Below are positions 28,710 to 29,194 of a stretch of 64,000 nucleotides of DNA, in pieces. Origin of the DNA: Kitasatospora sp. Root107 (GTDB lineage: Bacteria > Actinomycetota > Actinomycetes > Streptomycetales > Streptomycetaceae). The stretch covers positions 182,327 to 246,326 of the forward strand of contig NZ_LMCT01000004.1 in the NCBI RefSeq assembly GCF_001424875.1, given 5' to 3'. The notes below the pieces were generated by a model, which was given only the letters and a program-made list of their open reading frames with translations, searched no databases and had not been told where the DNA came from. Each line of letters starts with the position of its first letter. Within the stretch, counting starts at the first letter, position 1. The translations under genes and the position numbers were made by a program.

Positions 28710-28790
28710 GTCGTTCCCTCCATCGAACGTGTGATCGAGGCACGATAGCCTGCCGGTGGAGTCGAGACGTCAGTGGGACCTTGCCGATGG

Positions 28791-28871
28791 TGGGCGAGGG
28801 CGGATTCGAACCGCCACAGCCGAAGCGGGGGCTTTACAGGCCCTTGGGCTCAACCAGTGCCCAGCTCGCCC
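28791..28871 (-). tRNA. tRNA-Tyr (GTA), atypical
   Basis: The 81-base gene folds as a cloverleaf: acceptor GGGCGAG/CTCGCCC, D stem GGGC/GCCC with GG in the loop, and anticodon loop CTGTAAA (anticodon GTA). The variable region is 12 bases with a TTCG loop, and the T arm is GGCGG-TTCGAAT-CCGCC. The discriminator is A, and CCA is encoded next to it (28788-28790). Odd points are C at position 8 instead of the near-universal U, an A-C mismatch at 27-43, and a variable arm shorter than usual for tRNA-Tyr. It lies 13 bases after tRNA-Ser. Confidence 0.8.
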
Positions 28872-28884
28872 TTGGTGGGAAACG

Positions 28885-28969
28885 CGGAGAGTGCGCGGAT
28901 CGAACGCGCGCGGGCTCGCACCCGACTACGGCTTAGCAAGCCGCTGCCTTACCACTCGGCCAACTCTCC
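28885..28969 (-). tRNA. tRNA-Ser (GCT)
   Basis: The 85-base class II tRNA has acceptor GGAGAGT/ACTCTCC, D stem GCC/GGC, anticodon stem GCGGC/GCCGT and loop TTGCTAA (anticodon GCT, reading AGC and AGU). An 18-base variable arm forms CGGG/CCCG, and the T arm is GCGCG-TTCGATC-CGCGC. The discriminator G suits SerRS. CCA is not encoded. The 5' end is only 20 bases after a U-tract terminator, so no separate promoter of normal size fits between them. Confidence 0.9.
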
Positions 28970-28989
28970 CTGCATGGGGCGGCGTACAG

Positions 28990-29028
28990 AAAAAGAGCCG
29001 CCCTGGGGGTAACTCCCCTGGGCGGCTC
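28990..29028 (-). terminator. U-tract terminator or attenuator upstream of the tRNA genes
   Basis: Reading on the minus strand, a stem of nine perfect pairs (GAGCCGCCC with GGGCGGCTC), an inner G/C extension and a short loop is followed at once by TTTTT. True U tracts are rare in this genome. The hairpin sits 18 bases after the stop of an 18-codon open frame and 20 bases before tRNA-Ser. It is therefore placed to decide whether the tRNAs are transcribed. Confidence 0.82.
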
Positions 29029-29045
29029 GGCCGTTCGGCCGGGCG

Positions 29046-29102
29046 CTACGCCGCAGGGAGTCCACTACTGGAGGAGCGCTGATACGACTGCGTGCTGGTC
29101 AT
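29046..29102 (-). CDS. Putative 18-residue leader peptide
   Basis: An ATG preceded by GAGAGGA at seven bases opens the frame MTSTQSYQRSSSSGLPAA, ending in TAG. It has four consecutive serines, encoded TCC TCC AGT AGT, plus two earlier serines and a tyrosine encoded TAT. AGT and TAT are uncommon codons in high-GC actinobacteria. They are the codons read by the two tRNAs encoded just downstream (Ser GCT, Tyr GTA). The peptide looks like an attenuation leader; translation has not been shown. Confidence 0.55.
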   Translation of the reverse strand: MTSTQSYQRSSSSGLPAA

Positions 29103-29126
29103 GGTGCGTTCCTCTCTGCGTTGTCC

Positions 29127-29157
29127 GGTGCTGATGGGTTCACTCTTCATCAGCACC
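29127..29157 (-). other. Inverted repeat upstream of the leader frame
   Basis: GGTGCTGATG and CATCAGCACC form a perfect 10-base-pair stem with an 11-base loop. It ends 24 bases before the leader ATG. It may be an RNA hairpin in the 5' untranslated region or a protein-binding operator; the sequence alone cannot tell. Confidence 0.65.
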
Positions 29158-29194
29158 GCAGGGACCGGCAAGTGGATTAACGGCCGTCACGCTT

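Follow-up and report, generated by a model that had tools for sequence, protein, structure and literature searches.

On the minus strand of the window (the whole stretch of 64,000 nucleotides from Kitasatospora sp. Root107 analysed here), two tRNA genes follow a short open reading frame and a predicted hairpin, with an amine oxidase gene upstream and a gene for a 195-aa protein downstream. The layout proposed in an initial annotation (ribosome binding site, 18-codon frame, hairpin with TTTTT, tRNA-Ser, tRNA-Tyr) was recovered in every part at its minus-strand position, and comprises the following features:

29142 to 29171, minus strand: probable promoter, TTGCCG (29171-29166), an 18-nt spacer and AAGAGT (29147-29142), predicted from alignment with relatives
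29111 to 29116, minus strand: Shine-Dalgarno sequence GAGAGG, from the sequence
29046 to 29102, minus strand: leader ORF of 18 codons plus TAG, ATG at 29102, product MTSTQSYQRSSSSGLPAA, from the sequence and comparison
29090 to 29064, minus strand: leader core CAG TCG TAT CAG CGC TCC TCC AGT AGT (QSYQRSSSS), common to relatives and tracking tRNA sets
29050 to 29061, minus strand: leader-side strand of the predicted antiterminator, ACTCCCTGCGGC, codons GGA CTC CCT GCG GCG, predicted to pair with 29026-29012
29026 to 29012, minus strand: terminator-side partner of that strand, GCCGCCCAGGGGAGT, from the predicted pairing
28990 to 29028, minus strand: predicted intrinsic terminator, arms GAGCCGCCC (29028-29020) and GGGCGGCTC (29003-28995) followed by TTTTT (28994-28990), from folding
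28884 to 28969, minus strand: accessory tRNA-Ser(GCU), divergent from the housekeeping copy (ARAGORN; Rfam tRNA, 58.9 bits)
28788 to 28871, minus strand: accessory tRNA-Tyr(GUA), CCA encoded, divergent from the housekeeping copy (ARAGORN; Rfam tRNA, 44.2 bits)

The U-run lies 20 nt from tRNA-Ser. The leader codons TAT and AGT, earlier described as rare, are uncommon in the host, since they make up 5% of Tyr codons and 4.3% of Ser codons, respectively, in CDS-like frames of the window. Among the elements of an attenuator, the window holds a leader ORF with its ribosome binding site, cognate codons, a terminator and, by prediction only, an antiterminator. A strict consensus scan of the window for sigma-70 promoters and terminators listed neither element of the cassette, because its -10 box lacks the leading T, and because the inner stem and internal loops of the hairpin break the scan's 3-8 nt loop rule. 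In alignments TTGCC and a CAGAGT-like box are shared with relatives of the window cassette, and GAGAGGAAC at the Shine-Dalgarno sequence is invariant in ten aligned relatives. At three loci with tRNA-Tyr only (L021, L023, L024), TTGTCC-N18-GAGAGT stands directly before the tRNA, with no leader and no terminator. Two further features concern such promoter regions: a perfect 11-bp inverted repeat (CGGTGCTGATG/CATCAGCACCG) overlaps the -10 region at window positions 29158-29126, with no full copy in aligned relatives; and elsewhere in the same genome (L057, C11:6284-6438) odd Asn(ATT)-Arg(TCT) tRNAs, with one low Rfam score, follow immediately on a stretch that resembles the cassette promoter and have no leader.

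Searching 70 genomes of the window's genus, we found many loci with this layout. Often they contain additional tRNAs, in the order Gln(CTG)-Ser(GCT)-Ser(NGA)-Tyr(GTA), and their leaders have the core QSYQRSSSS in common, for which the usual codons are CAG TCG TAT CAG CGY TCY TCG AGT TCC. Leader-bearing relatives hold one to four tRNAs and the window two, its copy having neither tRNA-Gln nor the second tRNA-Ser, and its leader, by alignment, being without the CAG CAG AGC CAG stretch of its sisters. On this comparison the window cassette is a reduced version of the fuller cassettes in relatives, and the Gln codons in its leader are explained by the tRNA-Gln and second tRNA-Ser that those cassettes include. 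Flanking genes differ among the Kitasatospora loci, with few neighbours in common; the cassette therefore appears self-contained, and a role for the neighbouring genes was rejected on the same ground.

The arrangement extends beyond the genus. Streptomyces genomes carry, at a syntenic chromosomal locus, one additional tRNA-Ser(GCT) preceded by a leader rich in Ser; across 106 unique leaders Ser makes up 29% of residues, AGT and AGC supply 189 and 120 of 583 Ser codons, and Tyr is represented by three TAC only. In the genus of Streptomyces fildesensis and its relatives the set is Gln-Ser-Ser-Tyr or a reduced form of it, and MNVQAGLSQAYQRSSSTPSQQGSPGQAT is an example of the leaders. A class-wide search with tRNA-Ser as query uncovered a second actinomycete family, with the sets Ser-Met-His, Ser-Met-Arg(GCG)-His, Met-Arg-His, Met-Arg and Met, whose leaders are made up of codons for His, Met, Arg and Ser, with Gln almost absent and Tyr entirely so (for example VRHHHHRMHLRRSMPGRGSRPRT before Ser-Met-Arg-His, MDMRNMRHRHMPRPGPFLAT before Met-Arg-His and MRLRRRMNMPGWARM before Met-Arg); the promoter element GGCACAGTGG of the Streptomyces units occurs also in several of its cassettes. 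By these sequence comparisons the cassette is more than a chance arrangement, recurring in dozens of genomes with promoter, Shine-Dalgarno sequence, frame, core codons and terminator kept. The initial annotation had proposed such a comparison, in which leader, hairpin and tRNA order do recur and leader codons co-vary with operon tRNA content. It had also named, as evidence against itself, relatives that keep the tRNAs and lack leader and terminator: these exist at some loci with related tRNAs, either Tyr-only (L021, L023, L024, L028) or long mixed arrays (L030, L034-L037, L074, L075), so that the leader is not obligatory for such tRNAs, and elsewhere leader and hairpin recur.

The cassette tRNAs are extra, since the window genome has housekeeping genes for Ser(GCT), Ser(CGA), Ser(GGA), Ser(TGA), Tyr and Gln elsewhere (that for Tyr on contig C12), quite different in sequence; a housekeeping tRNA-Ser(GCT) was found in 14/14 genomes tested. 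The same genome holds an apparently accessory set without a leader, Gly(GCC)-Ala(CGC)-Trp(CCA), in which two genes score weakly as tRNAs (L053, C4:120686-120949). An origin of the whole cassette from a plasmid or phage was considered and rejected, no record in the plasmid or phage collections containing it; single tRNAs alone match and, in the plasmid cases inspected, do so within arrays. A Nonomuraea plasmid (NZ_CP107854.1; L196:13-2761) carries 26 tRNA genes in ~2.8 kb with no annotated features, an accessory Ser(GCT) type among them.

The leader codons follow the tRNAs of their own operon. Among Kitasatospora-type loci, TAT occurs in 29/29 leaders with tRNA-Tyr vs 1/4 without (p 7e-4) and AGT in 18/21 leaders with tRNA-Ser(GCT) vs 3/12 without (p 9e-4), p-values that, here and in the tests that follow, come from leaders that are kin and are not those of independent cases. 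The match first remarked for Ser and Tyr extends to sets with Gln, Met, Arg and His, although Arg codons in the second family show no significant tracking of tRNA-Arg (p 0.25). There, AGY codons number 2.8 per leader with tRNA-Ser vs 0.36 without (p 1e-5), ATG 1.9 with tRNA-Met vs 0 without (p 0.009), and CAY 3.4 with tRNA-His vs 1.4 without (p 0.006); non-cognate pairs of codon and tRNA are mostly not significant. When tRNA sets were permuted among leaders within each group, the observed fit was reached in 0/20,000 permutations in both.

Individual loci illustrate the pattern. L199 lacks tRNA-Tyr and any intact copy of tRNA-Ser; its leader reads TAC and GGT in place of its relatives' TAT and AGT, and four CAG are kept along with tRNA-Gln; L027 has no tRNA-Tyr, and TGT replaces TAT; L025, L076 and L203 have neither tRNA-Ser(GCT) nor an AGY codon. 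In the second family, L280 has lost both tRNA-Met and its ATG, and L273 bears tRNA-Ile(GAT) in place of its sisters' tRNA-Met(CAU) and ATC in place of their ATG. Five counter-cases (L007, L010, L073, L077, L288) retain codons for a tRNA that is gone; these may reflect recent tRNA loss, as the leader peptides of L073 and L288, which equal or nearly equal that of a sister with a fuller set, would be expected to look. Anticodons also vary: in L020 (1501-1814) a Gln-like tRNA has anticodon CCG and a Ser-like tRNA GCC, and CGG in the leader takes the place of the relatives' CAG, possibly a co-change of codon and anticodon or a decaying cassette. L076 (1095-1318) has tRNA-Gln with anticodon TTG and the sole CAA among Kitasatospora-type leaders; its sister L203 also has anticodon TTG but CAG in the leader.

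The region between leader and tRNAs is predicted to form competing structures. In the window the terminator folds at -31 kcal/mol, vs -17.9 for shuffled sequences (z -4.3); each of the 25 Kitasatospora-type leaders folded, like many second-family cassettes, has a hairpin that ends in a U-rich tail. A pairing of GCGGC at the leader end with GCCGC in the terminator arm, suggested beforehand, is possible and extends, by folding, to ACTCCCTGCGGC (29061-29050) with GCCGCCCAGGGGAGT (29026-29012). We modelled a stalled ribosome by folding the RNA downstream of it alone, at a stage when the 3' terminator arm has yet to emerge. For the window this predicts capture of the 5' arm with probability 0.88 if the ribosome halts on the Ser codons, and 0.13 if it has come close to the end of the leader, a drop reached by 0/60 shuffles. 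Over 25 related leaders, mean capture was 0.74 with the ribosome stalled in the core vs 0.16 at the leader end (dinucleotide shuffles, 0.61 vs 0.23); the drop exceeds that of shuffles as a group trend (Wilcoxon p 3e-6), most leaders taken singly not beating their own shuffles and a few, the window included, doing so. The second family showed the same trend (p 0.007) with a simple stem finder that mispicked some terminators; in one of its members (L290) the leader end GGCTCGCATG and the terminator-arm segment CATGCGAGCC are exact complements.

The Streptomyces units are built differently. In L058-L069 about 4-6 nt separate mature tRNA-Ser from the end of a long GC-rich hairpin, which is followed by no U-run; intrinsic termination is therefore doubtful there, and the mechanism may differ. 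As the RNAalifold consensus fold of this set was poor because of alignment gaps, we compared pairing within each sequence to pairing between swapped sequences. A stem joining the leader (GGGCAGC or variants) to the segment before the hairpin co-varies, with -16.1 kcal/mol for own partners vs -13.3 for swapped ones, a difference reached in 0/10,000 permutations.

Comparison of genomes thus shows a conserved cassette whose leader codons track its tRNA set, and folding predicts competing pairings at the leader end and terminator arm. From these properties we think it probable that the window cassette is a ribosome-mediated transcription attenuator in which the regulated genes are tRNAs and the sensor codons are those read by the same tRNAs. 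The control of tRNA-Ser and tRNA-Tyr by the leader, posited at the outset, draws support from the co-variation of codons with tRNAs and from the predicted alternative pairing; we infer translation of the leader, termination, stalling and the natural trigger. Transcription would start upstream of the leader. Prompt decoding of its Gln, Ser and Tyr codons would bring the ribosome to the leader end, where it would cover the antiterminator strand, allowing the terminator to form and little tRNA to be made. Shortage of charged or intact tRNA for any leader codon would instead stall the ribosome within QSYQRSSSS, leaving the leader end to pair with the 5' arm of the terminator and polymerase to continue into the spare tRNAs, which would then restore decoding, so that tRNA supply would be under negative feedback. 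Where a leader has codons for more than one tRNA it would act as an OR gate, any one shortage inducing the whole set. Loss or damage of tRNA, or translation stress, would be the likelier trigger, because extra tRNA is of little use without its amino acid.

Other readings share parts of this evidence. The Streptomyces units, with a hairpin about 4-6 nt from mature tRNA-Ser, no U-run, and a co-varying leader stem that is not itself a terminator, would be accommodated if a translated leader sensed decoding but acted through RNA stability, Rho or 5'-end processing of the precursor tRNA; for the cassette under study we regard this as unlikely, given the U-tailed hairpins in the window, in 25/25 Kitasatospora-type leaders folded and in many second-family cassettes. 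It is far less plausible that leader and hairpin form an unrelated small transcript and that the tRNAs are expressed from a promoter of their own or by read-through from upstream, a reading we consider nearly negligible: related tRNAs do occur without a leader at the Tyr-only loci and arrays listed above, but those Tyr loci place the same type of promoter directly before the tRNA, the gaps in leader-bearing units are tight (20 nt from U-run to tRNA in the window, 4-6 nt from hairpin to tRNA in Streptomyces), and the leader codons match the downstream set.

The conserved ORF and core, with codons matching the tRNAs, would also be expected if the ORF made a functional peptide rich in Ser, Gln and Tyr or in His, Met and Arg, for whose synthesis the tRNAs served. 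We judge this very improbable, because it is codons rather than residues that are kept. TAT supplies 34/38 Tyr codons in non-Streptomyces leaders vs 5% in CDS-like frames of the window, and AGT supplies 32% of Ser codons in Streptomyces leaders vs 4.3%; codon 6 of the Streptomyces ORFs of 20 codons plus stop is AGT in 74/79 and AGC in one; and L199 has TAC for TAT. The peptides diverge freely outside the core, and in Streptomyces leaders the synonymous share of substitutions is 0.28 vs 0.26 for random change, leaving a conserved functional peptide unsupported. These properties fit a leader that would be read for decoding speed and not for its product.

For the attenuator reading, the tracking of codons and tRNAs suggests a means by which bacteria can induce replacement tRNAs in response to a shortage of precisely those tRNAs. 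We extend this, tentatively and with slightly less than even confidence, to a class of self-sensing tRNA operons widespread among actinomycetes, in which the leader would serve as a test strip of the spare tRNAs' codons, shortage of or damage to any one tRNA would call up the replacement set, and leaders and anticodons would co-evolve; tRNA-cleaving toxins, defence nucleases and synthetase inhibitors, for example, might be inducers. If correct, this would constitute a direct feedback loop on tRNA supply, would give a reason why some actinomycetes keep divergent spare tRNAs, and would let the leader sequence alone predict which tRNA shortage induces the operon. Co-variation of leader codons with the operon's own tRNAs is, moreover, an unusually direct computational signature of a regulator's sensed input.

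Ribosome-mediated attenuation is known for genes of amino-acid synthesis and for synthetase genes; attenuation itself is therefore not new, and it is the self-referential use on tRNA operons that looks new. The open-access literature searched, which leaves most subscription journals outside, held no description of an attenuator governing tRNA genes. T-box riboswitches bind uncharged tRNA directly and have no leader ORF; like the cassette they couple tRNA status to transcription termination. A T-box was rejected here, Rfam giving no match other than tRNA at the gathering threshold for the window and ten loci, with sub-threshold matches weak and chance-like.

Leader peptides known from Streptomyces stand before genes for biosynthesis, transport and aminoacyl-tRNA synthetases, with trpL, leuL, ilvL, alaL and thrL as attenuators of amino-acid and synthetase genes in Streptomyces lividans (PMC8079986). 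The cassette resembles such trpL-type attenuators (PMC8079986) in its short leader ORF with diagnostic codons, its terminator before the regulated genes and a competing hairpin predicted to depend on where the ribosome stands. It differs in that it would regulate tRNAs, that is, the decoder itself and not an amino acid or synthetase, and in that its sensor codons span several amino acids, matching its tRNAs. With the tRNA arrays of mycobacteria, phages and plasmids (PMC5966550, PMC12803027) it shares extra, divergent tRNAs, accessory Ser, Tyr and Gln types occurring in the arrays L196, L030 and L075; arrays, however, are long and of many isotypes, with no leader found in those examined here, and the window cassette has two tRNAs. 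The trn operon of Anabaena, 26 tRNAs on a megaplasmid, is controlled by the repressor TrcR, a DNA-binding protein, and induced by antibiotics that target translation (PMC10272220). It is unlike the cassette in this DNA-binding repressor, and the words "leader" and "attenuation" are absent from PMC10272220. It is like the cassette as an accessory tRNA operon beside a housekeeping set, is normally silent and induced by translational stress, as the cassette may be, and is the nearest functional parallel that we found.
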